DNA from: Methylobacillus arboreus
GTDB taxonomy: Bacteria; Pseudomonadota; Gammaproteobacteria; Burkholderiales; Methylophilaceae
Assembly (NCBI RefSeq): GCF_020532725.1
Contig: NZ_JAJAVC010000006.1
Coordinates: 620,001 to 684,000 of the forward strand
Length of the DNA stretch: 64,000 nucleotides
Reading direction: 5' to 3'
Positions 1 to 22,501 of the stretch are shown one piece after another. A model generated the notes under the pieces. The model saw nothing but the letters and a program-made list of their open reading frames with translations, had not been told where the DNA came from and made no database searches. Numbering within the stretch: the stretch's first letter is position 1; every line of letters begins with the position of its first letter. The translations under genes were made by a program, and so were the position numbers.

Positions 1-285
1 CCGACGATTTTCTGCCTGCGTATGGCCGCAAAAGCGCGCGACCGGCTGGAAACAATCTGCCAGCAACGGCAAATCTCCACCCGCCGCTGGTACCAACCGC
101 TATTGCACCAGCACGCAGCTAAGGTGGCCCCCATCATCAAACAACCAACGCCTATTGCAGAAGCGATTGCCACAGGACTTATTGGCCTGCCGTTTTCTCC
201 CTTCATGACCAATGAAGATATCAATCGTGTAGTAGAGGCCACCAGGCTGGCAACTGCCAGCCCAATTTTAGCGCATCAACCTTAG
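1..285 (+). CDS. Sugar aminotransferase, DegT/DnrJ/EryC1/StrS family (C-terminal part)
   Basis: The reading frame is open from the first base, so the start lies outside the window; about 94 residues remain. The ending IGLPFSPFMTNEDINRVVEA matches the C-terminal signature of PLP-dependent sugar aminotransferases, where a 'LPxHP..s.eD...Vie' segment closes the fold. These enzymes transfer an amino group to a keto sugar nucleotide to make 4-amino or 3-amino sugars for surface glycans. The active-site lysine and cofactor pocket are not in view. The stop codon at 283-285 abuts the acyl carrier protein gene, which suggests the amino group made here is the acceptor for the acyl group built by the next genes. 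Family call is fairly secure; the substrate is unknown. Confidence 0.7.
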   Translation, partial: PTIFCLRMAAKARDRLETICQQRQISTRRWYQPLLHQHAAKVAPIIKQPTPIAEAIATGLIGLPFSPFMTNEDINRVVEATRLATASPILAHQP

Positions 286-296
286 TGAGAATGACC

Positions 297-521
297 ATGG
301 ATAACATCGAAGCCTTTATTGAAAAATTCATTGCCGCAGTGGACTTTCAGGAACAAGTAGCCATCACGCCAGAAACCAAGCTCGAAGACTTACCGGAATG
401 GGACTCTCTGGCGGCGCTGGGCGTCATCGTCATGTTCGACATGGAGTATGGCAAGACGATTACCGGTGAACATTTGAAAAAGGCCGCCACTGTCCAAGAC
501 CTTTATCAACTACTTGCCTGA
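297..521 (+). CDS. Acyl carrier protein
   Basis: A 74-residue acidic helical protein with the phosphopantetheine attachment motif WDSLA, serine 37 by this start. It carries acyl groups as thioesters for the KAS III-like synthase and the two reductases encoded just downstream. GTG at 285 and ATG at 291 are also in frame. ATG at 297 is preferred because the AGTGAG-like ribosome site at 284-289 is then correctly spaced. It is not next to fabD/fabG/fabF, so it is a dedicated carrier for this glycan locus rather than the housekeeping AcpP. Confidence 0.88.
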   Translation: MDNIEAFIEKFIAAVDFQEQVAITPETKLEDLPEWDSLAALGVIVMFDMEYGKTITGEHLKKAATVQDLYQLLA

Positions 522-529
522 GTTGCAAC

Positions 530-1582
530 ATGGCCACCTCTACGCTCAATAATGTACACTTTGCCGGCATGGCGACTTGCGTGCCCAAACATGTCGTCCA
601 TAACGTGCATGACGTGCCGCCGCACCTGCGCTCCGAGCGCGAACGGCTGGTGCGTAACATCGGTATCGAGACCCGGCGTGTCTGCCCCGATTGGCAATGT
701 TTTTCCGATCTGGCATACGATGCCGCCGACAAACTGCTGAATGACCTGCAATGGTCGCGCGAGGAGATCGGTGCATTGATCGTGGTGACCCAGTCGCCTG
801 ACTACCTGGTGCCGGCCACGGCCATCATTATGCAAGACCGCCTGGGCCTGGCTCACACCACCATCGCCTTTGACGTCAACCTGGGCTGCTCCGCCTACCC
901 GTTTGCCTTGCAGATACTGGGCAGCATGATTGCTTCGGGGGCAATCAAAAAAGGATTGGTGCTGCTGGGGGACCGTTCCAGCTACAAGCACAAGGATCCA
1001 TTGAAAGACCCTTTGTTTTCCGACGCGGGTACGGCCACAGCCTTGGAGTACCAGGAAGGCGCAGCGCCCATGTACTTTGACCTGAACAGTGACGGCAGCG
1101 GTTATAAGGCAATCATCGTGCCCGTGGGCGGGCATCGCAATCCGTTCCAGCTTGAACACGGCATTGCCCGCAAGGGGGAGGACGGCTTCTGGCGTTCCGA
1201 CCTGGACCTGATACTCGACGGCCCCGCCGTGATCAGTTTCTCCACGCAGCGCGTACCGCCCACCGTGGAAAACCTGCTCCGATATGCAGACATTGCCAAG
1301 GATGAAGTCGACTACTTCATCTTTCACCAGGCCAACCGGATGATCAATGAAACCATCCGTAAAAAACTGGGACTTCCGGAGGATAAAGTACCTTCGACAT
1401 TGCGCGACTTCGGCAACACCAGCGGCGCGTCCCTGCCCGTGACTGTCACCGCGCGCCTGCGCGAGGCGCTGGCACAGGGTAAAAAGCGCCTGCTGCTGTG
1501 CGGCTTTGGTGTGGGCTTGTCATGGGGTGGTGCCATTGTGGATGTGGAAGGTGCCGTCTTCCCCGAACTGATTATTTCATGA
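530..1582 (+). CDS. 3-oxoacyl-ACP synthase III family protein (KAS III/FabH-like)
   Basis: The 350-residue length is close to the family norm of about 320-350. The thiolase-fold triad is visible: Cys120 in LGCSAYP, His266 in IFHQANR and Asn296 in DFGNTSGAS, matching Cys-His-Asn of FabH. The expected reaction is condensation of an acyl-CoA or acyl-ACP with a malonyl thioester on the neighbouring carrier protein, giving a 3-oxoacyl-ACP. It lies 8 bp after the acyl carrier protein gene, and its stop overlaps the next SDR gene (ATGA). Similar ACP/KAS III/FabG sets occur in pseudomonad flagellin-glycosylation islands, where they build short acyl decorations; that parallel is inference. Confidence 0.88.
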   Translation: MATSTLNNVHFAGMATCVPKHVVHNVHDVPPHLRSERERLVRNIGIETRRVCPDWQCFSDLAYDAADKLLNDLQWSREEIGALIVVTQSPDYLVPATAIIMQDRLGLAHTTIAFDVNLGCSAYPFALQILGSMIASGAIKKGLVLLGDRSSYKHKDPLKDPLFSDAGTATALEYQEGAAPMYFDLNSDGSGYKAIIVPVGGHRNPFQLEHGIARKGEDGFWRSDLDLILDGPAVISFSTQRVPPTVENLLRYADIAKDEVDYFIFHQANRMINETIRKKLGLPEDKVPSTLRDFGNTSGASLPVTVTARLREALAQGKKRLLLCGFGVGLSWGGAIVDVEGAVFPELIIS

Positions 1583-2343
1583 GCGTAGCGCAGGATCCGT
1601 TTTCGCTCAGCGGCAAGCGTGTGCTGGTCACAGGCGCATCATCGGGCATCGGCAGACAGATTGCCATTACCTGCTCACAAATGGGAGCGCAACTGGTCAT
1701 TACCGGCCGCAATACCGAACGCCTAGAGGCAACTGCCACGGCACTTCACGGAGAGGGCCACACCGCCATACCCGCAGACCTGTCACAGCAGCAAGGATTG
1801 GACCTGCTCGCCGACCAGGCCGGAGCGCTGAATGGCGTAGTGCATGCCGCAGGTATTTCCAAGCTGGTCCCGTTCCGGCTGATCAGTAAAAGCCACCTGG
1901 ACGAAATTTTCGACAGTAATACCTATGCACCCCTGCTATTGACCAAAGGGCTGCTTGCCAGAAAACGCATTGCGTCCAATGGCTCCATACTTTTTATCTC
2001 TGCCCTATCATCCCATAGCGGTGCAATGGCCACATCGGCTTATGCAGCCAGCAAGTCCGCGCTGCTGGGCGCCATGCGCTCACTGGCCCTGGAGGTCGCC
2101 AAACAGGGCATGCGCGCCAACTGCATTGCGCCCGGTTATGTACGCACCCCCATGCTGGATGGCCTGGGACAGGGGGGCGGCAATATGGATGCCCTGTTTG
2201 ACCTCACGCCGCTAGGCATGGGCGATCCGGAAGATGTGGCTTATGCATCCGTATTTTATCTGTCGGATGCCAGCCGCTGGGTCACGCGCAATTACTTCAT
2301 CCTAGATGGGGGCCTGAGTACCCCCATGGACATCTACGCATGA
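1579..2343 (+). CDS. SDR family oxidoreductase (FabG-like)
   Basis: A 254-residue classical short-chain dehydrogenase. Visible signatures are the cofactor motif TGASSGIG near residue 17, the YAASK catalytic Tyr/Lys pair, and a C-terminal DGG. The start at 1579 overlaps the KAS III stop by four bases (ATGA). An in-frame extension to 1498 would lie inside the KAS III gene and lacks homology, so it is not used. The likely role is NADPH-dependent reduction of the 3-oxoacyl-ACP made by the preceding enzyme, or reduction of a keto sugar. It is followed by a paralogous SDR with about the same start motif (NPFSLQGK versus DPFSLSGK), so the pair looks like a tandem duplication. Confidence 0.88.
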   Translation: MSVAQDPFSLSGKRVLVTGASSGIGRQIAITCSQMGAQLVITGRNTERLEATATALHGEGHTAIPADLSQQQGLDLLADQAGALNGVVHAAGISKLVPFRLISKSHLDEIFDSNTYAPLLLTKGLLARKRIASNGSILFISALSSHSGAMATSAYAASKSALLGAMRSLALEVAKQGMRANCIAPGYVRTPMLDGLGQGGGNMDALFDLTPLGMGDPEDVAYASVFYLSDASRWVTRNYFILDGGLSTPMDIYA

Positions 2344-3080
2344 ACGCGCCCGTGATCAATCCCTTTTCGCTCCAGGGAAAAACGATCCTGGTAACGGGCG
2401 CCTCGTCTGGATTGGGCCAGCATATTGCCATTCGCTGCGCCCAGCGCGGCGCACGCCTAGTGATTACCGGACGCGATAAGGCCCGTTTGCAGGCAACCTA
2501 CGACCAGTTGCAGGGTGAGAGCCATGTACAGGTTCAGGCAGACCTCACCATGGCCGAGGATCGCGACCTCCTGGTCCAGTCGGTCAATGCGCTGGATGGG
2601 TTGGTGCACTGCGCTGGCATGCAAAAGCATTGCCCGGTGCGCCAACTGTCTGAACAGCTCATGAACGACATTTATCGTGTCAATTTCCTGGCGCCTGTCA
2701 TGCTGACGCAAAGCCTGTTACAGGCCAATGCCATCGCGCAGCAAGGTTCCATTCTTTTCATGCTGTCTACCGCGGCGCACATCGGCACCCGTGGCCTGGG
2801 ACCGTATTCAGCCATGAAGTCGGGGCTGATCGGCATCATCAAGTGCCTGGCGCTGGAGCAGGCCAAACGCAAGATTCGCGTCAATGGTATTTCGCCGTCG
2901 GCGATTGCTACCCCGATGTGGGATGTGCACCAACAGCTGCTGGAAGAGCAAAAAGCCAGGCATCCATTAGGGCTGGGGACGCCTGACGATGTCGCCAATG
3001 GCGCGATTTACCTGCTCTCGGACGCCAGCCGCTGGGTCACGGGCACCAGCTTGGTCATGGATGGCGGAGCAGTCATTTGA
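2340..3080 (+). CDS. SDR family oxidoreductase (FabG-like), second copy
   Basis: A 246-residue classical SDR with TGASSGLG cofactor motif, YSAMK catalytic pair and a terminal MDGGAVI. It overlaps the first SDR by ATGA and the next gene by TGATG, indicating translational coupling. Its sequence is related to the preceding SDR along the full length, but the active-site surroundings differ. One copy may reduce the acyl chain and the other may act on a sugar or on a different chain length. Substrate assignment is not possible from sequence alone. Confidence 0.87.
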   Translation: MNAPVINPFSLQGKTILVTGASSGLGQHIAIRCAQRGARLVITGRDKARLQATYDQLQGESHVQVQADLTMAEDRDLLVQSVNALDGLVHCAGMQKHCPVRQLSEQLMNDIYRVNFLAPVMLTQSLLQANAIAQQGSILFMLSTAAHIGTRGLGPYSAMKSGLIGIIKCLALEQAKRKIRVNGISPSAIATPMWDVHQQLLEEQKARHPLGLGTPDDVANGAIYLLSDASRWVTGTSLVMDGGAVI

Positions 3081-3721
3081 TGAAAAAAGCCTATATCATC
3101 GGTGCCGGTGGCTGGGGGCGCGAAGTCCTGGTGCAAATGCACGATGACTTGTCCTGCGGCAAGGCATGGGAGATTGCCGGCTTCCTGGACACCCGTCCGC
3201 ACATGCTTGATGGCATAGACTGCGGCGCCCATATCGTGGGCGACCCCTTGACACACATACCTAATGACGACGAGGTCTTTGTCTGCGCCATAGGGCTGCC
3301 ACGGGGGCGCGAACAATACGCCAAGCCCCTGCTCGACAAAGGCGCGCAGTTTATCCATATCCGCACACCCTACAACACCCATGGTTATGTCAGCGTGCGC
3401 GTCCACACCGGCACAGGCTGTTTCTGGGCCGCACGGGTGCAGATCAGCCCAGACGTCTGGATAGGGGATTTTGCCAATATCCACAGCGGCACCATCATCA
3501 GCCATGACGTGCGCATCGGCGACTATGCGCAGATTGGCGCCATGGTGTTCATCGGCGGCGGCGCGCAGATTGGCAACCACGCCATCGTCTACCCTCATGC
3601 CACCATCACCCCTGGCATCAAAATAGGCGATGGCGCCACGGTAGGCGCAGGAGCTGTGGTTATTAAGGATGTGCCACCCGGTGTCACCGTATTCGGCAAC
3701 CCGGCCAAAGTCATCTTTTAA
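3080..3721 (+). CDS. NeuD/PglD-family sugar O- or N-acyltransferase
   Basis: A 213-residue protein. It starts with a Rossmann-like nucleotide-binding segment (YIIGAGGWGRE) that binds the sugar nucleotide in PglD, followed from about residue 90 by hexapeptide repeats of a left-handed beta helix (WIGDFANIHSG, VRIGDYAQIGA, KIGDGATVGAG). The catalytic-base histidine is probably in TIISHDV. Relatives acetylate UDP-4-amino sugars or sialic acid from acetyl-CoA. In this operon the donor could instead be the acyl-ACP assembled upstream. ATG at 3080 is chosen over TTG at 3077 because it forms the TGATG coupling with the SDR stop. Confidence 0.82.
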   Translation: MKKAYIIGAGGWGREVLVQMHDDLSCGKAWEIAGFLDTRPHMLDGIDCGAHIVGDPLTHIPNDDEVFVCAIGLPRGREQYAKPLLDKGAQFIHIRTPYNTHGYVSVRVHTGTGCFWAARVQISPDVWIGDFANIHSGTIISHDVRIGDYAQIGAMVFIGGGAQIGNHAIVYPHATITPGIKIGDGATVGAGAVVIKDVPPGVTVFGNPAKVIF

Positions 3722-3747
3722 CGGCGCAGATCATTCAGGAAGCATCC

Positions 3748-4890
3748 ATGCAATCACGCATGCATCCCAAATACTATTTGTCGCAGGATATTTTCGACCG
3801 TGAGCAGGTAAAGATTTTCCGCAAGGTCTGGTTGTTCGCAGGGCTGGCTTCGCTCTTGCCCGAGAACAACTCCTTCATTACACGCAAGATCGCGGGCATC
3901 CCGGTCGTGATCCAGAACTTCAAAGGCGAAATCAAGGCTTTTGAAAACGTCTGCCTACACCGCAGCGCGCCTTTACAGCAAGGGTTTTATGGCCGCCGCG
4001 CCCTGGTTTGTCCTTACCATGCCTGGAGCTACGATGCCACAGGCATGGTCAAGAGCATTCCCGACTGCGATACTATCTACCGCTTCAGCAACGAGGAAAA
4101 GCAATCCCTGAAACTGCGTGAGTTTGCCTTGAAACAGTTAGGTTCCCTGCTATTCATCAACCTGAGCAGTGAGCCCATGCCGTTCGAGGAGCAGTTCAAT
4201 CCCGGCTTTGTCGCATTGATGAAAAACGCCGCAAATGCATTCGACACCGAAGTGATGGTGACCACCTGGCATGGCAAGTTCAACTGGAAACTGGTCTATG
4301 AAAACCTGCGCGACTTCAACCATGTCAAATTCCTGCATGCCAAAAGCCTGGCGGCTGTAGCCGATTTTCCATTCCATGCAGCAAACCAAGTCGACTTGGC
4401 ACTTACACCATTATCCGACACTTCCGTGGCCGGGCTGCGCAAAGCCATGCGCCCGTTCAGTTTCGGCGGACCCGAAGGCGAAGTCGACCCGATACGGCAT
4501 GTCCCCTGGCTGGATATGGTGGAGCGCTGGGGAACGCAGGATGCCTATTTCAACTGGCTCGCCTATCCGAACCTGCATATCGCCTGCGGCAACGGCGGCT
4601 ATTCCTTCACCATCGAACACCATATCCCCGTCGCGCCGGACCGAACCGATATCGAAATCTATTTCGTCACGGCTAAAAAGAAAAAGCCTTATGCCGCATC
4701 GTCCCAGGTGCTGCTCTCCAACTTGCACTACAGCAAGAAAATCCTCGATGAGGACATAGGCATGCTGGAACAGATACAGAGCGTATTACACGACGACGCC
4801 CCCATACCCAACCAGGGCGCATACGAAAGCACCAACCGGCAGATCGAACGCTGGTACACCACCTTGATGGAGATCGAGCATGAAATCTAG
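3748..4890 (+). CDS. Rieske [2Fe-2S] oxygenase, aromatic-ring-hydroxylating dioxygenase alpha-subunit type
   Basis: A 380-residue protein with an N-terminal Rieske domain: Cys69-x-His71 followed by Cys88-x2-His91. The C-terminal catalytic domain carries the mononuclear-iron motif NHVKFLH (His192, His197) after an ENLRDF segment. It would use O2 and an external reductase to hydroxylate or demethylate its substrate. No ferredoxin reductase is encoded beside it, so electrons must come from elsewhere. AGGAAG at 3737-3742 is a good ribosome site for ATG 3748. Its place between two acyltransferase genes of a glycan cluster suggests it oxidises the acyl group or a sugar, not an aromatic; this is inference. 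Confidence 0.85.
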   Translation: MQSRMHPKYYLSQDIFDREQVKIFRKVWLFAGLASLLPENNSFITRKIAGIPVVIQNFKGEIKAFENVCLHRSAPLQQGFYGRRALVCPYHAWSYDATGMVKSIPDCDTIYRFSNEEKQSLKLREFALKQLGSLLFINLSSEPMPFEEQFNPGFVALMKNAANAFDTEVMVTTWHGKFNWKLVYENLRDFNHVKFLHAKSLAAVADFPFHAANQVDLALTPLSDTSVAGLRKAMRPFSFGGPEGEVDPIRHVPWLDMVERWGTQDAYFNWLAYPNLHIACGNGGYSFTIEHHIPVAPDRTDIEIYFVTAKKKKPYAASSQVLLSNLHYSKKILDEDIGMLEQIQSVLHDDAPIPNQGAYESTNRQIERWYTTLMEIEHEI

Positions 4891-5503
4891 ATGGATAGTC
4901 GGCGGCGGAGACCAGCTGGGCCTAGCCTATTACGCCTGGAAACAAGCGCGTCAGGACGAAGATGTGCAGAAAATCGAAGTGCCGCAAGGGGCGGACTATG
5001 AATTTGATTTATCGGTTTTCGATCAATTGAACCCGGAGACCGGCGATATTTTTATTGCCTTTGACGAACGCTTCGGCAACTTCAAGCGCATGGAGCTGTT
5101 TCGCGCCGCGCTGGCCCGTGGCTTTTCTCTGGGGCCCTTAATCAGCGCCAGCGCCGATGTAGCACAAGATGTTGTAGTGGGGAAAAACGTATTCATCGGT
5201 CCGCAAGCGGTCATTGGCCACGGCTGCAAGATCGAATACAACAGCGTCATCCACGCTGGCGCGCATGTGGGTGCCAACAGCCACCTCCGCGCATCCGTGT
5301 GGGTAGAACCCGGAGTACAGATCGGCGCCAGGGTCGAAGTGGGCGCCCATGCCATTATCCGTACCGGCGCCATCGTGCACAGCAATATAAAAGTGGGCAA
5401 AGGGGCAGAGCTGGGCTGGCCCCAGCTCTACAGCACCGACGTGACGGACAAGACCGTATACGATATTCGCTATGACGAGCCGATATACGTCTACGGCAGT
5501 TGA
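4880..5503 (+). CDS. NeuD/PglD-like left-handed beta-helix acyltransferase, second copy
   Basis: A 207-residue protein with a short N-terminal nucleotide-binding-like segment (WIVGGGDQLGLAYY) and hexapeptide repeats from about residue 85 (VVGKNVFIGPQAVIGHG, QIGARVEVGAHAIIRTG). The start overlaps the Rieske gene end by 11 bases. It differs clearly from the PglD-like gene at 3080: the glycine-rich loop is GGGDQ rather than GAGGWG, and the C terminus is replaced by a YDIRYDEPIYVYGS tail. It may transfer a different acyl group or serve as a partner subunit. Confidence 0.75.
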   Translation: MKSRWIVGGGDQLGLAYYAWKQARQDEDVQKIEVPQGADYEFDLSVFDQLNPETGDIFIAFDERFGNFKRMELFRAALARGFSLGPLISASADVAQDVVVGKNVFIGPQAVIGHGCKIEYNSVIHAGAHVGANSHLRASVWVEPGVQIGARVEVGAHAIIRTGAIVHSNIKVGKGAELGWPQLYSTDVTDKTVYDIRYDEPIYVYGS

Positions 5504-5551: not shown

Positions 5552-6733
5552 ATGCATCACAAGGATACTTTTCTTGCTGCGGTGCAGGCATTAGCGCAAG
5601 ACCCCTTGCATACGGTGCCAGAGGCTGCGCGTGCCATTATTGCCAAGTCCGGCAAGGCAGCCAAGATCGTTATCCTCGGTACCCGGGGCCTGGGCTCATA
5701 TTTGCTCGACTTGCCTGCTCCGGAACGTTACTGCGATGTTGTCGCCGTGGTGGATGACTCTCGCAGCAAGTCGGAATCTACTTACAGAAACCTGCCGCTG
5801 GTAACAACTGCGCAGTTTATCGCGATGTCGAAACAGCACAGCAACCTGCTCGCCATCAACACATGCAGCAAACAAGCGCCCCAGCAATTTTTCAACCAGG
5901 TTTGCCGAGACAATGATATTGCCTGCATCAACTTCGAGCAGGCCATCCGCGCTCTTGGCCTGAATGGCAAACTGGATTATCGCGTCGAAGACTGGGGGCC
6001 GGACATTGTACGCAACGCGGCGCGATATCAAACCCTGGAAAAACGCCTGGGAGACGACACGTCAGTTGCAACGCTTTACGCATTGCTGAGCCATTACCTG
6101 AGTTGTAAACTCTCGTATGTTCGAGATGTACAACTGCCTTATTCCGCCCTCTACTTCCGCTCCGGACTGCTGCATTTCGGCAAGCAGGAGAAAATGGTGG
6201 ACTGCGGCGCCTCGACAGGCGAATCGCTGCGGGGGTTGCTCAACGTGACCAACGGCGAATTCGCGCGTAGCTGGATGATAGAGCCTGATCGCAACAATGT
6301 GAGGGTGCTGCAATCATTGATCAATCACTATCAGGGCACTGCGCTGGCGGACCGGATCAGTTTACATCCCTGCGGCGCAGGCGAAACGGCCATGCACGTC
6401 CACTTCAAGCACGAGGGCGGTCATGGTGGCGCGGTGATCGCAAACGGCATGGCAGGCAATACCGACATGGTTGAAGTACAACCAATAGACGATATTGTCG
6501 ATGATGTTCCTACTTTCATCAAAATGGACATCGAAGGATCGGAGTTGTCGGCCCTGAAGGGTGCTCGCCGGACTATTTCCGCACACAAACCCAAGCTGGC
6601 GATATCGGCTTACCACCGATCCATGGATTTGCTGGATCTGACTGACTACGTATTGTCGTTGAATCCGGATTATCGAGTGAGTTTGCGGCATCACACACCG
6701 TTGCGGTGGGATACATGCTTGTATTTTTACTGA
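5552..6733 (+). CDS. FkbM family methyltransferase with N-terminal Rossmann-like domain
   Basis: A 393-residue protein. Residues about 30-150 form a nucleotide-binding-like domain (IVILGTRGLGSYLL, then VVAVVDDS) resembling the N-terminal domain of PglD/NeuD proteins. From residue 215 it has an FkbM SAM-dependent methyltransferase domain: MVDCGASTGES (SAM loop), then FIKMDIEGSELSALKGA, the acidic signature of the family. FkbM proteins O-methylate sugars or polyketides. The extra N-terminal domain may bind the sugar nucleotide or a dehydrogenase-like substrate. Confidence 0.8.
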   Translation: MHHKDTFLAAVQALAQDPLHTVPEAARAIIAKSGKAAKIVILGTRGLGSYLLDLPAPERYCDVVAVVDDSRSKSESTYRNLPLVTTAQFIAMSKQHSNLLAINTCSKQAPQQFFNQVCRDNDIACINFEQAIRALGLNGKLDYRVEDWGPDIVRNAARYQTLEKRLGDDTSVATLYALLSHYLSCKLSYVRDVQLPYSALYFRSGLLHFGKQEKMVDCGASTGESLRGLLNVTNGEFARSWMIEPDRNNVRVLQSLINHYQGTALADRISLHPCGAGETAMHVHFKHEGGHGGAVIANGMAGNTDMVEVQPIDDIVDDVPTFIKMDIEGSELSALKGARRTISAHKPKLAISAYHRSMDLLDLTDYVLSLNPDYRVSLRHHTPLRWDTCLYFY

Positions 6734-6740
6734 GACTCAC

Positions 6741-8972
6741 ATGCACCTCCTGACACCTGGCCCTCTCGTTTCCGTTGTCATTCCGAGCTCCAAGGAAGCA
6801 AATTTCCTTGCGCAAGCGATGGACTCGGTGCGCGCGCAAGGGATAGAAGGTTTGGAACTGCTCATCGATGGCGACGTAAAACAGGCCAAAGGCAAATATA
6901 TCGTCTTTTTGGAAGCGGACGGTGTATTTGAAGCAAGTGCCTTGCGGGCACGCCTGGACTACCTGGAAAGTCATCCGGAAACGCGGCTGGTCCATAGCCC
7001 TGTCAAACTGATCGACGTAAATGGTAACGATCTTGGCGCAGTGATCTCCCGTCCCAAGGCAATGGCGTTTGACGCATCGGTCAATCCCATTCACCTGAGT
7101 GGGGTCATGGCTGAGACAGCCTTGCTCCGCGAGTTTGCTTTCACGGAAGTTGAAGTGCCTGGCTGGTATGCAGGCTGGCTGACCTTTGCCCAGGCATTGC
7201 GCACAGGGGCAGTGTCGCAATTTGTCGCCAATGGCGGGGCCAGGCACCGAGTCCGGCAGACACCCTCGCTAGCGTCGGAACAACAGTGCCATGACGCTGC
7301 GCTGCGGGATGTGCTCGGCTGGATATACGCACCATCGCAAGACGCCTGCACCGCACCGCAGTACATGCAAGGCTTGGCCAGTCCGCCATTCACGGCAGCC
7401 AGGCGCTTGCGCGACTTCTCCTTTTTCATCTGGTGCCTGGTCAGTGGTCACGCCAATATATGCCGATCCATGCTGGAAAACGCCGGTCTTGTCGCCTTCC
7501 TGAATACCTGGCTGGTGGTATCCATCAAGGAAGAAATCCACAGGCAGGTCGCCCGCCAGTATCAAACCAACCTGCAAGCGCATCCAGAGCAATTGGAGCA
7601 AGACGTCAAGACAAGGATGCTGCGTGATGCCATTGCCCTGGAATTGCGGGACAAGGCCCCTTCCATATTACTGGCGGTTTGCGAATGCTTGGGTATGCCG
7701 TATCCGCAAGAAAAGGTAAAAGAAGATAGGGAACTTGTACCTGTAGCAGATGTTGCGGTCAAAAATGACCCTCGCCCTTTTGTGCTGATAACGACTTTTC
7801 GTACCGATGCGGATGCGGCAGAGGTCAGAAACTGCGCAGCAATCCTGTTGGAAAATTGCAGCAACCCCTGGATATACCAAGTACATGCATTGCTGGAAGG
7901 GCCTGCCGCAAACCTGGAAGCTGGCTTGCAAGACTCGCAACTCACGGCGCTACGCGGGTTTGCAGCCTCTGGCAAATTAGTGTTTTCGCCAATTTCATCG
8001 CGTCCTCACTACCAATACCTGTTCGGCTACGCCAACTCCCTGGGCAACGTGACGGCTGCCGTGGTCAATGCCGACATGGTGTTGCCTCCGCAGGCGGCTC
8101 ATGACATGGTGCTTGGCCACGCTGCCGATGGTCATGCCATATATGCGCTGACACGCTGGAACCGCACAGCGACAGGCGAATACTTGCAAGGCCTGCAGCC
8201 GCATCCCCCCTGGCCGCAATGGTCGCCTGCCGGGCGCAGCCATTTTGAGAAACATTGCCTGTCTTACGACTGCTACATATTCGATACCCCTATATCCGTT
8301 CCACAGGAATTGGCATCGGTATCAATCGCCACTTACGGATGCGATACGGCGATCGCGGCCATCCTGCGCACGGAAGGCCATGTAGTCCGGAATCCATGCC
8401 TGTCCGTGCGCACCCTGCACATGGACGAGAAGCTGCGTGACTATGCCGGCGAGCGCGGACAGCAAGACCTAGCGAACAATATCCAGGCCTTCGCAGCCGT
8501 ATTGCTGCGCAAGTACACCCAGCACGCATCATATTCAGGCAGTTTGCAGAATCTGCAGGTATTGAACAAGCAAACTGCGTGGCTGGGTGGCCCCGGCAAT
8601 GCCGACGTGATGCATACCATTTTCATGAACCTGGGGGCAAGCCCCTGGATGAAACTGGGGAAATACCCGCCTTTTTCCGCAATTACAATCACTATCACGC
8701 ATGGTAATCTCGACAATGTGGCAGCAGAACTGGCCCGGATACCAGAAGTCATCGAGCGCAATCTTTTTATCATTTGGGAACTGTATGGCTTCCCTCATGG
8801 AGGAGGCCACATCGCCGACTTGTTGGTCAACCACGATCGTTTCGAAGCCATCGGCTACCCGCTGTTCCGTTATCAGTGGCAGGCCATGGTACATCGGGAT
8901 CTGGCCAGTGATACCGCACAACGGATACTGGATGACCTGAGTAGGATGATTGCTGAAATCTTGCACGTATAA
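6741..8972 (+). CDS. Family 2-like glycosyltransferase, large, with shortened N-terminal GT2 domain
   Basis: A 743-residue protein that opens like GT2 enzymes (LVSVVIPSSKEANFLAQAMD) and reaches GKYIVFLEADGVFE, the usual segment before the DxD site. The roughly 25-30 residues that normally lie between them, including the VDDGSTD nucleotide-binding acidic motif and the NxG loop, are missing: LLIDGD runs straight into VKQAKGKY. A second alpha/beta region starts near residue 345 (FVLITTFRTDADAAEV) and contains VVNADMVLP. The C-terminal 130 residues match no family known to me. It sits 7 bp after the FkbM gene. The GT call rests on the N terminus; activity of that domain is doubtful. Confidence 0.62.
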   Translation: MHLLTPGPLVSVVIPSSKEANFLAQAMDSVRAQGIEGLELLIDGDVKQAKGKYIVFLEADGVFEASALRARLDYLESHPETRLVHSPVKLIDVNGNDLGAVISRPKAMAFDASVNPIHLSGVMAETALLREFAFTEVEVPGWYAGWLTFAQALRTGAVSQFVANGGARHRVRQTPSLASEQQCHDAALRDVLGWIYAPSQDACTAPQYMQGLASPPFTAARRLRDFSFFIWCLVSGHANICRSMLENAGLVAFLNTWLVVSIKEEIHRQVARQYQTNLQAHPEQLEQDVKTRMLRDAIALELRDKAPSILLAVCECLGMPYPQEKVKEDRELVPVADVAVKNDPRPFVLITTFRTDADAAEVRNCAAILLENCSNPWIYQVHALLEGPAANLEAGLQDSQLTALRGFAASGKLVFSPISSRPHYQYLFGYANSLGNVTAAVVNADMVLPPQAAHDMVLGHAADGHAIYALTRWNRTATGEYLQGLQPHPPWPQWSPAGRSHFEKHCLSYDCYIFDTPISVPQELASVSIATYGCDTAIAAILRTEGHVVRNPCLSVRTLHMDEKLRDYAGERGQQDLANNIQAFAAVLLRKYTQHASYSGSLQNLQVLNKQTAWLGGPGNADVMHTIFMNLGASPWMKLGKYPPFSAITITITHGNLDNVAAELARIPEVIERNLFIIWELYGFPHGGGHIADLLVNHDRFEAIGYPLFRYQWQAMVHRDLASDTAQRILDDLSRMIAEILHV

Positions 8973-9023: not shown

Positions 9024-10691
9024 ATGAACACTTCACTACGTATTCCGGTGCAAATGCTGGGCCAGTCTGGCTGCCGGTTGGAGTTTCCTGGCTGCACAGT
9101 CTATGTCGACCCTTACCTGTCGAATTCGGTCCAGGAACTGGATGGACCTGACCTGGATCGCTTGCTGCCCATCCCCATGCAGCCTGAAGATGTCCAGGAT
9201 GCCGACTGGGTGCTGATCACGCATGAGCACATCGACCACTGCGATCCGCACACTTTGCCCAAGCTGGCAGTTGCCTCGCCGCAAGCCCGTTTTATCGGCC
9301 CCCTTCCTGTATTGAAACTACTTGCCGAGTGGGGTATTGCCGCCAATCGTTTACTGGTTGCCAAGGAATCCTGGCAGCATTTGAAGCAGGAAGGGCTACG
9401 CATACATGCAATCCCGGCAGCACACCCGGAACTGTTGCGCGATGCCGAAGACAACCTAGCTTTTGTAGGGTATGTGCTGGAATATGGCGGGCAAAGGCTA
9501 TATCTCGCTGGCGACACCATGGCCAATCAGGAGATCATCAATGCCCTGGCTGATTTTGCGCCACTGCATACCGCTTTCCTACCGGTCAACGAGCACAATT
9601 TTTTCCGGGGCCGACGCGGCATCATAGGCAATATGTCCATCCGCGAGGCTTTCCAGTTTGCCCAGGAAATCGGCGTCCGGCAGGTGGTGGCTGTGCACTG
9701 GGACATGTTTGCGATCAACTCGGTCGACCCGGATGAAATCCGCCTGGTGCACCAGAAACTGAAACTCGGATTCGATCTATTGCTTCAGCCCTCCAGCATC
9801 AACCTTGGCAAGGTTCGCGCCAGCATCATCATCCGCACCCTTAACGAGGGCCGCCACCTGGAATCCGTGTTGCAGGGCATTGCCAGCCAGGAAACCGGTG
9901 GCTGGGCTCATGAGGTGGTGCTGGTTGACTCCGGCTCTACGGATGAGACCCTGCAAATAGCCGAACGCCATAGCTGCCGCATTCTGCATATTTCGCGGGA
10001 AGAGTTTTCTTTCGGGCGTTCGTTGAACAAGGGTTGCGAGGCCGCCATGGGCGACATCCTGGTCATGGTCAGTGGACATTGCATACCCAGCGACCCGCAC
10101 TGGCTGCGGAACCTGTGCCTCCCCATCATTGAACAGCAGGCCGACTATGTATACGGAAGACAGCTGGGAGGGAGGGACAGCCATTTCAGCGAGAAACGTA
10201 TTTTTGCCAAGTATTTCCCCGCATCCTCCGCAGTGCCGCAGGATGGATTCTTCTGCAACAACGCCAATGCGGCACTATCGCGCAAGGCTTGGCAACAATA
10301 CCGCTTCGACGAAGACTTGACCGGATTGGAAGATATGGACCTGGCACAAAAGCTGGTACGGGACGGCAGGAAAGTGGGGTATATCGCCGAGGCGGCGGTA
10401 TATCACCATCATGAGGAAAACTGGTCGCAAGTGCGACGGCGGTTCGAGCGTGAAGCCATCGCCTTGCAAAGAATCATGCCGCAATTTCATGTCAGCCTAG
10501 TGGATACCCTGCGCTATATTTTCAGCAGCTTTCTCAAGGACATGCGGCAGGCCTGGCGTGACGGCACCAAGGTCAGTATGCTGGACGTGTTTCGCTACAG
10601 GCTTAACCAGTACTGGGGCGCGTACAAAGGTAACCATGAGCATAGACGTATGTCCCGTGCCGAAAAAGAAAAATATTTTTATCCCCAATGA
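9024..10691 (+). CDS. Fusion of metallo-beta-lactamase-fold hydrolase and family 2 glycosyltransferase
   Basis: A 555-residue two-domain protein. Residues 1-255 are a metallo-beta-lactamase-superfamily hydrolase of the UlaG-like type, with the metal motif HEHIDH, a later GDT and HWDMF. From residue 264 a complete GT2 domain follows: RASIIIRTLNEGRHLE, LVDSGSTDETL, then GHCIP in the DxD region, and GLEDMDLAQKL as the acceptor/base motif. The GT2 half resembles rhamnosyltransferase-like enzymes. No frameshift or internal stop separates the halves, so this is a true fusion. It overlaps the cytidylyltransferase gene by ATGA. Confidence 0.82.
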   Translation: MNTSLRIPVQMLGQSGCRLEFPGCTVYVDPYLSNSVQELDGPDLDRLLPIPMQPEDVQDADWVLITHEHIDHCDPHTLPKLAVASPQARFIGPLPVLKLLAEWGIAANRLLVAKESWQHLKQEGLRIHAIPAAHPELLRDAEDNLAFVGYVLEYGGQRLYLAGDTMANQEIINALADFAPLHTAFLPVNEHNFFRGRRGIIGNMSIREAFQFAQEIGVRQVVAVHWDMFAINSVDPDEIRLVHQKLKLGFDLLLQPSSINLGKVRASIIIRTLNEGRHLESVLQGIASQETGGWAHEVVLVDSGSTDETLQIAERHSCRILHISREEFSFGRSLNKGCEAAMGDILVMVSGHCIPSDPHWLRNLCLPIIEQQADYVYGRQLGGRDSHFSEKRIFAKYFPASSAVPQDGFFCNNANAALSRKAWQQYRFDEDLTGLEDMDLAQKLVRDGRKVGYIAEAAVYHHHEENWSQVRRRFEREAIALQRIMPQFHVSLVDTLRYIFSSFLKDMRQAWRDGTKVSMLDVFRYRLNQYWGAYKGNHEHRRMSRAEKEKYFYPQ

Positions 10692-15093: not shown

Positions 15094-15121
15094 TTCATCC
15101 AGCCTATGATTGAAAGCACAG

Positions 15122-15971
15122 ATGAATAATTTGCTGTCCGCCCTCAAGGTCAATAAACCTGACACACTCATAGAGGCGTATAGAAGAGCCCGTTACCCGC
15201 TACGCAATGCCATCGATGGGGGCGCTGGGTTCGGGAAAACGTCTCGCGACATCTTGGAGCATCTCGCTCCTGAGAGCAAAGTATATGCATTCGAGCCATT
15301 CCCTGGGAATCACCGCTTTTTCGACAACATTGATGCGCTTATCCAGCTAATCCCTAAGGCACTGACTGATAAGCATCAATATGCAAACTTTATATGCCTT
15401 CTGTCGTCAGCGAGGATTCTGCTTGGGGAGAAAAGGGTATGGCGGGCTATTCATCACTAGGTTCGCTTTCCGCACCCAGAGACAATATTCACACCAATAT
15501 CGAAGTGGAGTGCTTCCGGGGCGACGATGTCATTGACCCAGCTATCTCCATTGACTTCGTCAAGCTTGATTTGCAGGGCGGCAAATTGAATGCATTGAAG
15601 GGATGCCTCGCATCCTCAATGAAGCCAAGTTTTTATGGGTGGAATTTCTCCATTCCGGCAATGGCTTATTGAAGTTCCTGATCGACTCCGGTTACATGAT
15701 ATTTGATACGGAATATATGTTTATAGGCGAGCCCACGACAGAAACCGAAGTCCTGTTTGAGATTTCGGAAACAGAGATTGCGTTATCCACCAATGCCAAG
15801 GCCTGGTTTGGCTATAAAAGAAAGTCATGGGGAGATTTCAAGCAAGAGTTCTATGAATTGAAACGTACCATAGGCCTCGTGCAGACCAACCTTGTTTGCA
15901 TTAATAAAAAGCAATTATCCGAATTTGTATCCATCCTTCCCTACCTGAACACAAGCGCCCGAGAGGAGTAA
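15122..15971 (+). pseudogene. FkbM family methyltransferase, broken by two frameshifts
   Basis: The coding signal runs through three frames. From ATG 15122 it reads an FkbM SAM domain (IDGGAGFGKTSRD, KVYAFEPFPGN). Near 15388-15393 the frame must change to continue as MPSVVSEDSAWGEKGM and IDFVKLDLQGGKLNALKG. Near 15600-15604 it must change again to continue as PRILNEAKFLWVEFLHSG to the stop at 15971. Each change equals the loss of one base: one T in a TTT run before ATATG, and one A in GGATG. Joined, the product would be about 280 residues, normal for FkbM. Both sites are short runs, so base-call error is an alternative to true decay. Confidence 0.8.
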
Positions 15972-18967: not shown

Positions 18968-21900
18968 ATGGCAGGTGAACTCCCGCTAGTCAGCATCGTC
19001 ATGCCAGCATACAAGCACCAATATCTGGCACAAACGCTGGATAGGGTACTGGACCAGACTTATCCGATGCTGGAGCTAATCATCTGCGACGACAGTGATA
19101 ACGGGCGCATCGCCGAGCTGGTTGCGCAGAAGAAAGACAGTACAAACGTACTCATACGTTATTACAAGAATGGCGGGCACTTTGGAGAACTCGTCAGCAC
19201 AGTCAAGGGCATCAAACTAGCCCAAGGCAAGTACATCAAGCTCTTGCATGACGACGATGTGCTGGAACCCGACTGTATCACCGAGCTGGTAGCGGCCATG
19301 GAAAATGAGCAGGGCATTGCCCTGGCTTCTTCACGCCGCCAGCGGATCGACGACGACGGCGAGCCGTTGCCGGATATTCTCCATACCTGCTTCCCGTTTT
19401 CCGGCGATGTGGTCATCAACGGCAAGGAGCTGGTCTCGTTTCTCGGCGACCACACGATCAATTTCATTGGAGAGCCGAGTTGCATCCTGGCGCGGCGCAG
19501 CGACCTGCTGGAGATTGCCGACGAACTGATGTCGCTCAACGGCAAGGTCATCCATTGGGTTGGCGACTTGGCGCTGTATGCCAAGCTGCTGCAGCGCGGC
19601 AATTTGGCTTTTCTTGCCAGGCCGTTGACCAAGTTTCGCGTCTCCAGCACACAATTCAGCCAGGTTGGCCGCGACCAGGCTGGCATCGGCGACAAAGGCC
19701 ATGCTGATTTCCGCCAAGGGGTTCGCGATCTTGGCTGGTATCGCGCCTCTGGCGACAGTCGTTTCGTCAATGTCGCGCCGATCACGCGCCTGAAGGCGCG
19801 GGTGTTTAAGCCGATGAACCTGTTGGCAGCCTTGCAGCGCGCGGCGAAACTGGGCAGCGTTTCCCTGGCTAACTGGATTGCCTCGCGGCGGCCGACGCCG
19901 GTGCAGCAAAAGCTGATCGAGCAGCGAATGGCGCAACAGGACGGCGGCCCGCGCATTGCGGTCGTGCTGATCGATGTTAAAGGCGATGCCGATGCAGTCG
20001 GACGCACGTTGCAAACCCTGGAGCAGCCCAATCTCTACCGCAACCTGGATGTGCTAGTGTTTTCGCCATCTGCGCTACCCATTGCGGCAAACCAGGCCAG
20101 GGTTGTGACCTTCGACCCCGGGTCTGGCGTCGCTCCAGCATTGAATCAAAGCCTGACCGATTTACGGGCCGAATGGATCTTGCTGGTGCAAGCCGGCGCG
20201 GAATTCATGCACAGCGGCCTGCTGGTTGCCGCCCTGGATTTGCCCACGCTGCCAGAGACCTGCCAAGCGGCCTACGCCGATGAAATCATCCGCCTGGAAG
20301 ATGATGAGCTCGGCCTGATGCTGCGGCCAGACCTCAACCTCGACTTGCTGCTCAGTTTCCCGGCCAGCATGTCTTCACATTGGCTGTTCCGCCGGACGGC
20401 ATTGCTGGAGCAGGGCGGGTTTTCCGAAGAATTTGGTCAGGCTTTTGAGCTGGAATACCAGTTACGCCTGATCGAACAGCAAGGGCTGGGCTGCATCGGC
20501 CACATTAGCGAACCGCTGCTGACAGGCAACACATTAAGCTTGCAGGATAAACCCGAGGAGCAGGCAGTCATCCAGCGCCATTTGCAGGCCCGCGGCTATG
20601 AACATCCTGAAATCGCCAGCCACCTGCCTCGATGCTATGAGATCAATTACGGACATCCGCAACAGCCTGCGGTCAGCATCCTGATTGTAGCCAAGCACCG
20701 GTTGCCGCAAATTCAGCGCTGCCTGGAAACCTTGCTGGAAAACACAAGCTATCCCAATTACGAAGTGCTGCTGCTGGATCATGGCAACCAGGCAGCGGAC
20801 ATCCGCACCTGGCTGGCCGGGATTGAGGCAATGGGTGTCGCGCAACTGCGCGTGCTGCATTTCGCCAATAACCTTTCGCGTGAGGCATTGTGCAACCAGG
20901 CAGCGCAGCAGGCGCGGGGAGACTTCCTGCTCTGGCTGGGCGATGGCGCAGGGATTCTGCGCAAAGACTGGCTGCAGCAACTGCTCAACCATGGGTTGCG
21001 CCCCGAAGTGGGGGCTGTAAGCGGCAAACTGCTTTCCGCCGACGGGAAAATACGCCATGCCGGACTGCTGCTCGGCCTCAACGGCCCGGCAGGGCGCGCT
21101 TTTGAAGGGCTGGCCCACGACGATAACGGCTATATGCAGCGCTTGCAGTTAGACCAGGATTACTCTGCCATCAGCGGTGAATGCCTGATGCTGCGGCGGG
21201 ACTTGTTCCTGGAAGCGGGTGGCTTTGACGAAGACCCTTTGCTATCGCGCTGGGTTGATGTCGACCTGTGCCTGAAACTACAACAGGCCGGTTTCCTCAA
21301 TGTCTGGACACCGCGAGCGCAACTGCTGATGGACATGCCACCGGCCACCACCGCAAGCACCGGGGAAGAAGATGCCATGTATGCCCGCTGGCTGCCGGTG
21401 CTTGCGCGCGACCCGGCTTACAACCCGGGTTTCTCGCTGCAAGCCGAGCAGGGCTTCAAGCTGGCAGAACCGCAACTGGCCTGGCGCCCACTGCAAGCCT
21501 GGCGACCGTTGCCGGTTATCCTGGCGCACAATGCCGACCCATACGGATGCGGCCATTACCGGATCATCCAGCCATTTGCCGCCATGCGCGAAGCTGCATT
21601 GGTTGACGGCACGATATCCGCCAACTTATTGTCGCCTGCCGACCTGGAACGATATAAGCCTGACGCGATCGTGCTGCAACGGCAAACCACTGAAGAACGT
21701 GTTGAGGCCATGCGCAGCATCAAGGCTTTTTCACAGGCATTCAAGGTATATGAACTGGATGACTACATACCCAACCTGCCCATGAAGAGCATTTACCGCC
21801 AGCGCATGCCCAAGGACATCATCAAAATCCTGCGCCAAGGGCTCAGCTTTGTGGACCGTTTTGTGGTGTCCACCCCGGCATTGGCAGAAGCTTTTGCCGG

Positions 21901-22501
21901 GCTGCATGCCGATATCCGCGTCGTCAAGAACCGCCTGCCGGTCGCCTGGTGGAAAGACTTGCAGAGCCATCGCCGTACTGCAGCAAAGCCACGCGTCGGC
22001 TGGGCTGGGGGCAATAGCCATACGGGCGACCTGGAGCTGATTGTAGATGTCATCAAGGAGCTGGCCGACGAAGTGGAATGGGTGTTCTTTGGCATGTGCC
22101 CGGAAAAACTGCGGCCCTATGTGCACGAATTCCATGCCGGTGTTGCCATCGACCAATACCCTAAAGTCCTGGCCGGCCTGAACCTGGATCTTGCCCTGGC
22201 ACCCGTCGAGCAGAACCTGTTCAACGAGTGCAAAAGCAACCTGCGCCTGCTGGAATATGGAGCCTGCGGCTTCCCGGTCATCTGCAGCGATGTGCGTTGC
22301 TATCAGGAGGATGACCTGCCGGTCACCCGCGTCAAGAACCGCTTCCGCGACTGGGTGGATGCGATCCGCATGCATCTTGCAGACCTGGATGCCACCGCCA
22401 GAACTGGCGATGAACTGCGCAATGCGGTGCTGGCGAACTGGATGCTGGAAGGCGAGCATCTGCATTGCTGGCACCGTGCCTGGCTACCGGACAGCAACTA
22501 A
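18968..22501 (+). CDS. Four-module glycosyltransferase (GT2, two GT2-like, GT-B)
   Basis: A 1177-residue protein. Module 1 (residues ~5-260) is a standard GT2 domain with VSIVMPAYKHQYLAQT, IICDDSDNG and a DDD metal site in LLHDDDVLE. Module 2 (~329-540) is GT2-like, but QAGAE replaces the DxD site. Module 3 (~567-830) is GT2-like (AVSILIVAKHRLPQIQRCL) with GDG at that site. Module 4 (~849-1177) is GT-B-like: AHNADPYGCGHYRI, VYELDDYIPN and LLEYGACGFPVICSD. Only module 1 has a clean metal site. It is separated by 210 bp from the previous gene and may have its own promoter. Such long modular GTs often build O-antigen or flagellin glycans. Confidence 0.8.
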   Translation: MAGELPLVSIVMPAYKHQYLAQTLDRVLDQTYPMLELIICDDSDNGRIAELVAQKKDSTNVLIRYYKNGGHFGELVSTVKGIKLAQGKYIKLLHDDDVLEPDCITELVAAMENEQGIALASSRRQRIDDDGEPLPDILHTCFPFSGDVVINGKELVSFLGDHTINFIGEPSCILARRSDLLEIADELMSLNGKVIHWVGDLALYAKLLQRGNLAFLARPLTKFRVSSTQFSQVGRDQAGIGDKGHADFRQGVRDLGWYRASGDSRFVNVAPITRLKARVFKPMNLLAALQRAAKLGSVSLANWIASRRPTPVQQKLIEQRMAQQDGGPRIAVVLIDVKGDADAVGRTLQTLEQPNLYRNLDVLVFSPSALPIAANQARVVTFDPGSGVAPALNQSLTDLRAEWILLVQAGAEFMHSGLLVAALDLPTLPETCQAAYADEIIRLEDDELGLMLRPDLNLDLLLSFPASMSSHWLFRRTALLEQGGFSEEFGQAFELEYQLRLIEQQGLGCIGHISEPLLTGNTLSLQDKPEEQAVIQRHLQARGYEHPEIASHLPRCYEINYGHPQQPAVSILIVAKHRLPQIQRCLETLLENTSYPNYEVLLLDHGNQAADIRTWLAGIEAMGVAQLRVLHFANNLSREALCNQAAQQARGDFLLWLGDGAGILRKDWLQQLLNHGLRPEVGAVSGKLLSADGKIRHAGLLLGLNGPAGRAFEGLAHDDNGYMQRLQLDQDYSAISGECLMLRRDLFLEAGGFDEDPLLSRWVDVDLCLKLQQAGFLNVWTPRAQLLMDMPPATTASTGEEDAMYARWLPVLARDPAYNPGFSLQAEQGFKLAEPQLAWRPLQAWRPLPVILAHNADPYGCGHYRIIQPFAAMREAALVDGTISANLLSPADLERYKPDAIVLQRQTTEERVEAMRSIKAFSQAFKVYELDDYIPNLPMKSIYRQRMPKDIIKILRQGLSFVDRFVVSTPALAEAFAGLHADIRVVKNRLPVAWWKDLQSHRRTAAKPRVGWAGGNSHTGDLELIVDVIKELADEVEWVFFGMCPEKLRPYVHEFHAGVAIDQYPKVLAGLNLDLALAPVEQNLFNECKSNLRLLEYGACGFPVICSDVRCYQEDDLPVTRVKNRFRDWVDAIRMHLADLDATARTGDELRNAVLANWMLEGEHLHCWHRAWLPDSN

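Follow-up and report, generated by a model that had tools for sequence, protein, structure and literature searches.

A stretch of 64,000 nucleotides from Methylobacillus arboreus (contig NZ_JAJAVC010000006.1, positions 620,001 to 684,000; hereafter the window) opens inside a glycan island of about 25 kb, which runs from a GT41/TPR gene upstream of the window to a gene for a large glycosyltransferase near window position 22501. The genome comprises 3.05 Mb over 17 contigs, the island being on contig C14. A sugar aminotransferase, an acyl carrier protein (ACP), a beta-ketoacyl-ACP synthase III (KAS III), two short-chain dehydrogenases (SDR1 and SDR2), a NeuD-type sugar N-acyltransferase (NeuD1), a Rieske non-haem iron oxygenase, a hexapeptide-repeat protein (NeuD2) and an FkbM-type methyltransferase are encoded in this order (Table 1), and the set very probably includes a dedicated acyl-assembly line for an amino sugar. 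Gaps separate only ACP from KAS III (8 bp), NeuD1 from the Rieske gene (26 bp) and NeuD2 from FkbM (48 bp), all other neighbours overlapping. The tight coupling that the initial annotation described for positions 1-5503 was borne out, every gene it named being present and either overlapping or 8-26 bp from the next. The part of the island upstream of the window (L006 15470-18285) holds the GT41/TPR gene and the whole aminotransferase gene.

Table 1. Genes of the island; positions refer to the window unless a locus is named.
Feature	Position	Strand	Supporting match or size
DegT-family sugar aminotransferase, C-terminal 94 codons	1..285	+	PF01041; start upstream of window
Complete aminotransferase gene	L006 17125-18285		386 aa
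Dedicated acyl carrier protein (ACP)	285..521	+	PF00550 E 6.7e-4
Beta-ketoacyl-ACP synthase III (KAS III)	530..1582	+	PF08541/PF08545
SDR1, short-chain dehydrogenase	about 1579..2343	+	PF13561
SDR2, ketoreductase-like	2340..3080	+	PF13561
NeuD1, sugar N-acyltransferase	3077..3721	+	TIGR03570 173.7 bits, cut-off 160.8
Rieske non-haem iron oxygenase, alpha subunit only	3748..4890	+	PF00355 + PF00848
NeuD2, hexapeptide-repeat protein, Rieske partner gene	4880..5503	+	PF00132
FkbM-type methyltransferase	5552..6733	+	PF05050
1177-aa multidomain glycosyltransferase, candidate transferase of finished sugar	18968..22501	+	Glycos_transf_2, two stretches

The best 80 loci listed for the Rieske protein included six relatives at 60-65% identity, four from Xanthomonas and one each from Candidatus Burkholderia verschuerenii and Oxalicibacterium solurbis; none of the remaining 74 exceeded 35% in its best segment. 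Gene order was read in these six loci and 33 more, and was judged on the sought gene families only. All six follow the order of the window, from ACP and KAS III through the SDRs and NeuD1 to Rieske and NeuD2. An unbroken series from KAS III to NeuD2, with one or two SDRs, then NeuD1 and Rieske in between, is seen at 37 of the 39 loci, and at 34 of these 37 the aminotransferase was found upstream. NeuD2 directly follows 40 of 43 Rieske genes, the exceptions being the second copy in L154, which has lost its cluster segment, L159, where the contig ends, and L174, which has a divergent Rieske. Given an order kept this widely, a chance neighbourhood of these genes was rejected. Most known Rieske oxygenases belong to catabolic or natural-product pathways. 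The possibility that the Rieske gene is a stray catabolic gene was also rejected, as its 60-65% relatives sit in the same island at every such locus read.

The distribution of the Rieske gene was searched with a cut-off of E 1e-60. This gave matches in 5 of 187 genomes of the family of M. arboreus, in 2 of 398 genomes sampled across the phylum (M. arboreus itself included) and in 31 of 35 genomes of Xanthomonas, the genus of X. hortorum. Among the latter, 24 carry a Rieske at 61-65% identity to that of the window, the commoner type, and seven have only one at 32-34%; one of the 24 also has the 32-34% type. KAS III of the Xanthomonas loci is 67-72% identical to that of the window. Gene order could be read in 30 of the 31 Rieske-positive Xanthomonas genomes; in the remaining one (G597, locus L201) the contig ends just past the Rieske gene. 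KAS III was searched in the four Rieske-negative Xanthomonas genomes, in G597, G055 and G057, and in the phylum sample; none of the four Rieske-negative genomes gave a match. G055, a sixth genome of the family, has a Rieske just under the cut-off and was a candidate at E 1e-60 for a KAS III island without Rieske. This was rejected, since its island (L200) has two divergent Rieske genes and NeuD2; one of these Rieske genes is split over two frames, and the NeuD1 frame is just 127 aa long. Decaying genes were also seen at other loci: the second Rieske copy of L154 (G056) is without its cluster segment, and NeuD2 of L011 is in two frames. Rieske proteins at an intermediate 30-50% identity were found in the same island type.

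The Cys-His-Asn residues of KAS III are kept in 39-40 of 40 relatives and the pyridoxal phosphate Lys of the aminotransferase in 37 of 37 sequences. The window ACP scores 20.3 bits against PF00550, slightly below the gathering score of 20.8, and the active-site Ser is present in 38 of 38 relatives. The initial annotation had made its proposal depend on Rieske and ACP genes not being absent from syntenic glycan loci, and both proved to be there. Its assignment of two reductases stood for SDR2, in which Ser, Tyr and Lys are all kept (37/37), and less well for SDR1. In the latter, Tyr and Lys are found in 38 of 38 sequences and the catalytic-Ser column is occupied by Ala in 23 and Ser in 15, in a group that was assembled by best match and may include a few other SDRs (the L155 entry is the SDR3 of its island). 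SDR1 of the window has Ala at the usual catalytic Ser, with a Ser one residue earlier. Because SDR1 often has Ala at this site, and because three Xanthomonas loci with a single SDR keep one that best matches SDR2, SDR2 is the likelier ketoreductase.

The two NeuD/PglD-type acyltransferases of the initial annotation likewise fared differently. NeuD1 exceeds the TIGR03570 cut-off, its nearest solved structures are PerB followed by VioB (7txp, E 7.5e-20), and its His143 aligns with the His altered in PerB entries 4eaa and 4eab; this catalytic His is found in 39 of 39 sequences, including one stand-alone NeuD of L174. NeuD2, on the other hand, scores 86.5 bits against the same model, below the cut-off of 160.8, and among 40 sequences the catalytic-His site is taken by Pro (17), Ala (11), Ser (5), His (2), Gln (2) and Tyr, Ile and Asn (one each), Ala being the residue in the window; in no column of this 40-sequence alignment does the share of His exceed 65%. 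A pair of ordinary acyltransferases was rejected on these grounds. The predicted structure of NeuD2 has a predicted local distance difference test (pLDDT) score of 75.6, its last 28 residues being unreliable, and a fold search with this model returned nothing at E<=0.001, the best hit, PerB H141N at E 0.0099 and TM 0.34, being too weak. QdtC is the second-best solved match of NeuD2, and acyl transfer by QdtC also works without such a His base; loss of the His therefore does not exclude an acyltransferase role for NeuD2. The protein flags a class that resembles sugar acetyltransferases yet does not have their catalytic residue.

The Rieske protein has the motifs of a non-haem iron oxygenase: the CxH/CxxH cluster ligands and the 2-His-1-Asp iron site are each kept in 43-44 of 44 sequences, the exception being the decayed second copy of L154 without the cluster segment. 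Its closest solved match is carnitine monooxygenase (E 3e-23), over residues 9-198 only. With the amine-group Rieske oxygenases (carnitine and glycine betaine monooxygenases) it shares the Rieske cluster and the 2-His-1-carboxylate motif; it differs from them in that the match is N-terminal only and no reductase gene adjoins it. Reductase-like proteins are encoded elsewhere in the genome, among them one at C14:806205 with BenC as best model (214 bits, cut-off 430). A Rieske-type enzyme that hydroxylates the N-acyl group of a nucleotide amino sugar is known in CMP-N-acetylneuraminate hydroxylase (CMAH), and CMAH was absent among the listed matches of Pfam, NCBIfam and solved-structure searches of the island proteins.

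How these genes evolve relative to one another was assessed by correlating pairwise distances. For this, 28 loci and the window were kept, 25 of the loci being from Xanthomonas, and the figures given here are over those 25. Left out were L154, L157, L158 and L160 (tandem or partial), L165-L167 (single SDR), L011 and L185 (aminotransferase not found or NeuD2 broken), L159 and L174. Distances of SDR1 and SDR2 correlate with r 0.99 and those of SDR2 and NeuD1 with r 0.92, the range for SDR1, SDR2 and NeuD1 being 0.92-0.99; these three genes form one co-varying block. Rieske and NeuD2 correlate with r 0.88 (permutation p 0.0005), and Rieske and KAS III with r -0.12. Because the sequences share one tree, the contrast between correlations outweighs the p values.

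Combinations of gene types and traces of recombination point in the same direction. Among 30 Xanthomonas loci, 18 combine A-type SDRs with a type I Rieske, four B-type SDRs with type I and four B-type SDRs with type II; one has B-type SDRs and both Rieske types in tandem, and three have a single SDR and a type II Rieske. Tandem Rieske-NeuD2 pairs are found in L157, L158 and L160, and decayed extra Rieske copies in L154 and L200. In L182 (G613), the stretch 7300-7760, between NeuD1 and an intact type I Rieske, bears a scar. It consists of the leftover start of a type II Rieske (tblastn E 2e-11 with L162) and an additional NeuD1 3' end, which runs into the Rieske gene and over 187 bp shares 92.5% identity with the L013 junction. 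Most simply, a type I cassette has taken the place of a type II cassette here. With their co-variation, tandem pairs, two types and recombination scar, Rieske and NeuD2 behave as one cassette, and they probably act as a functional pair.

Taken together, these data favour, with a probability of roughly 55%, an island of the GigX/viosamine type whose product is a 4-amino-4,6-dideoxyhexose for flagellin, N-acylated and then oxidised further. The substrates and the order of the steps are what we infer from gene content, order, conservation, active-site state and cassette behaviour as read from the sequences. The aminotransferase would make a nucleotide 4-amino sugar. Its best NCBIfam model is TIGR04427 DesI (146 bits, cut-off 650), DesI also being the best match of the X. 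hortorum aminotransferase, and a 4-amino-4,6-dideoxyhexose is somewhat favoured as the base sugar. With the dedicated ACP as carrier, KAS III would build a short 3-oxoacyl chain, which SDR2 would reduce; SDR1, without the usual Ser, may assist or carry out another step. NeuD1, with its His intact, would then transfer the chain to the sugar amine. The N-acylated sugar nucleotide would next become the substrate of Rieske and NeuD2 as a pair. The Rieske would hydroxylate its acyl chain or its ring, with electrons supplied by a reductase encoded elsewhere, and NeuD2 would hold the substrate or modify it by a mechanism independent of the canonical His. Finally, the FkbM enzyme would methylate the sugar and the VioT-like transferase of 1177 aa would add it to the flagellin glycan. 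Evolution of the genes leans towards oxidation after N-acylation: because NeuD1 tracks the SDRs much more closely than it does the Rieske, the acyl group has probably reached its final form by the time it is transferred, the Rieske-NeuD2 pair acting later or elsewhere on the sugar. A more speculative view, which we put forward tentatively, is that Rieske and NeuD2 represent a new partnership, in which the NeuD2 beta-helix has lost its acyltransferase base and now serves as a substrate platform or new catalyst, the pair oxidising N-acylated nucleotide sugars and being exchanged, stacked or replaced as a cassette, so as to vary the flagellar glycan. A swappable pair of this kind would be a testable explanation for variation of the outer flagellar sugar.

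Oxidation could alternatively fall on the sugar ring or its nitrogen instead of the acyl chain, for example as ring hydroxylation, ketone formation or N-oxygenation. That the cassette is less tightly coupled to the acyl block is consistent with this, as are the best named matches of the Rieske (carnitine monooxygenase and a glycine betaine monooxygenase model), which act on small polar amines and match its N-terminal half only, far below cut-off. N-oxygenation, however, would compete with N-acylation by NeuD1, and oxidation away from the acyl chain is judged unlikely, if a serious contender. Less probable still is hydroxylation of the acyl chain on the ACP, with one of the two acyltransferases transferring the oxidised product. 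The gene neighbourhood would fit such a sequence of events, and every island read that has this KAS III also has a Rieske of some kind. However, NeuD1, which would need to recognise the oxidised acyl group, tracks the SDRs (r 0.92) far above the Rieske (0.33), a type I Rieske accompanies a B-type SDR/NeuD1 block in four Xanthomonas loci, and NeuD2, which does track the Rieske, is without the catalytic His. The amino sugar bearing an oxidised, carrier-built acyl group that was first predicted thus keeps its acyl line and loses ground as to oxidation before transfer.

For M. arboreus the proposed target of the sugar is flagellin. A flagellin gene is present in 11 of 11 Rieske-bearing genomes searched, and in four of four Xanthomonas genomes checked the Rieske gene is 12.7-13.2 kb from a flagellin gene. 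At L169, which was read by gene family, the run is preceded by genes for sigma-54, a response regulator and FleQ. In L174 (G388), two flagellin genes, fliD and fliS (read from translations) and a TPR/OGT-like gene (28% match) precede a run of ACP, KAS III, SDR, FkbM and Rieske, the Rieske being a different one (27% identical). L174 also has nucleotidyltransferase, dehydratase, 451-aa DegT and epimerase genes that resemble a CDP-3,6-dideoxyhexose set. Flagellin is almost certainly the target in Xanthomonas, and we infer that it is likely to be so in M. arboreus. The Rieske has been kept in sugar islands of flagellar clusters through most of a plant-bacterial genus and in methylotroph-like relatives, and flagellin glycans have been linked in a review to shielding from plant recognition (PMC8364246). 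An island sugar that serves another surface glycan here, such as O-antigen, capsule or another protein, would accord with flagellin being on another contig and with no flagellar genes having been recognised in the 18 kb upstream (frames of at least 150 aa) or in the window. Arguing the other way, a scan of 18 distinct proteins of the island, which did not take in the broken gene at 15110-15971, found neither flippase nor polymerase, the island has a GT41-like enzyme and a transferase the size of VioT, and related islands lie in flagellar clusters; another destination is judged improbable.

Several observations weigh against the favoured reconstruction. The base sugar may differ, because the aminotransferase is only 27-29% identical to that of Xanthomonas, and the DesI scores are far under cut-off. 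A reductase role for SDR1 is doubtful because the canonical Ser is absent in the window protein. Separation of the two blocks is incomplete: correlations between them are weak yet non-nil (0.26-0.37; permutation p 0.0005-0.0025, three pairs tested), with r 0.33 for Rieske and NeuD1 and 0.26 for NeuD1 and NeuD2 (permutation p <=0.001 each) and 0.36 for Rieske and SDR2 (permutation p 0.0025), and A-type SDRs are found in none of the eight Xanthomonas loci that bear a type II Rieske. In L200 (G055), NeuD1 and the first Rieske are separated by an FkbM gene. No electron-transfer reductase gene is present in the island, and the structure prediction for the Rieske was unusable (pLDDT 36). As to flagellin, the M. 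arboreus gene is on contig C11, so the island on C14 is not inside a flagellar cluster, and no sugar genes were recognised around the C11 flagellin gene (read from translations). Outside Xanthomonas the island is away from flagellin in seven of eight genomes compared, the exception being G388 with L174; the two are on different contigs in G053, G056, G050 and the genomes of L011 and L012, and about 730 kb apart on the single contig of G054.

Other features of the window were noted as well. The FkbM protein (5552-6733) has relatives at 56-58% in L012 and L014 and weaker ones elsewhere. It also has a weak NeuD-like match at its N-terminus, over residues 38-119 (TIGR03570 E 1.2e-4), which gives it the appearance of an FkbM enzyme that has acquired a NeuD domain. 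One FkbM-type gene at 15110-15971 apparently lies over three overlapping frames and is probably decayed (read by eye). At 9024-10691, a metallo-beta-lactamase (MBL) domain is fused to a family 2 glycosyltransferase, a fusion also found at 82-83% in L154 and L155, from two genomes of one genus. Well beyond the island, at 56432-58972, a sugar ABC transporter permease and ATPase are apparently fused in a single frame of 846 aa (read by eye).

Comparison with known systems places the island among those for flagellin glycans. In Pseudomonas syringae, VioA, VioS, VioR, VioB, ACP and VioM are described as producing dTDP-N-(3-hydroxy-1-oxobutyl)-2-O-methylviosamine, which is transferred by VioT, a protein of 1173 aa (PMC3927599). 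This agrees with the initial suggestion of a carrier-based acyl line in pseudomonad-type glycan islands, as vioA, vioS, vioR, vioB and acp occur together there (PMC3927599). VioA, ACP, VioS, VioR, VioB, the methyltransferase and the 1173-aa transferase described for P. syringae pv. tabaci 6605 match window genes by family or size, and the window has the ACP, KAS III, 3-oxoacyl reductase (SDR2, triad intact) and VioB-type N-acyltransferase by which such an island is recognised. VioT and the window glycosyltransferase are close in size (1173 and 1177 aa). A search for VioT in 206 genomes of the family of G621 gave no match and, having no positive control, is uninformative. The seven reading frames described for the viosamine island include one reductase and neither a Rieske nor a NeuD2, the window adding a second SDR, the Rieske and NeuD2.

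The islands of Xanthomonas include the Rieske as well. GigX-type islands have a related large glycosyltransferase at the island end, as does the window; the window protein has a 61% match in X. hortorum spanning residues 4-1175 and is matched in 25 of 30 Xanthomonas loci. The original gigX study reportedly lists a ring-hydroxylating dioxygenase among ten genes in its abstract. A literature search, whose coverage did not extend to that study, found no account of Rieske-step chemistry in a flagellin glycan. In X. oryzae, gigX1-10 is described as regulated by RpoN2/FleQ and as determining flagellin glycosylation (PMC8657755, PMC6859632). The Rieske-bearing set, which the initial annotation took to be undescribed, is already in print for X. 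euvesicatoria, where a gene table gives an aminotransferase (XCV2013), ACP (XCV2012), 3-oxoacyl-ACP synthase (XCV2011), two SDRs (XCV2010/XCV2009), an acetyltransferase (XCV2008), a Rieske protein (XCV2007) and two hypothetical proteins (XCV2006/XCV2005), the run being located between fleQ (XCV2014) and fliE (XCV1999) (PMC3826837). By this printed table, the order from aminotransferase to Rieske is the same as in the window. Unlike the Xanthomonas island, which lies inside the flagellar cluster, that of M. arboreus lies elsewhere in the genome, and it has extra genes for a GT41-like protein, a cytidylyltransferase, a hydroxyacid dehydrogenase and the MBL-glycosyltransferase fusion. It is thus best regarded as another flagellin-glycan island of the GigX/viosamine kind, to which the present analysis adds the loss of His in NeuD2 and of Ser in SDR1, the two co-varying blocks, the cassette swaps, the scar and the tandem pairs.

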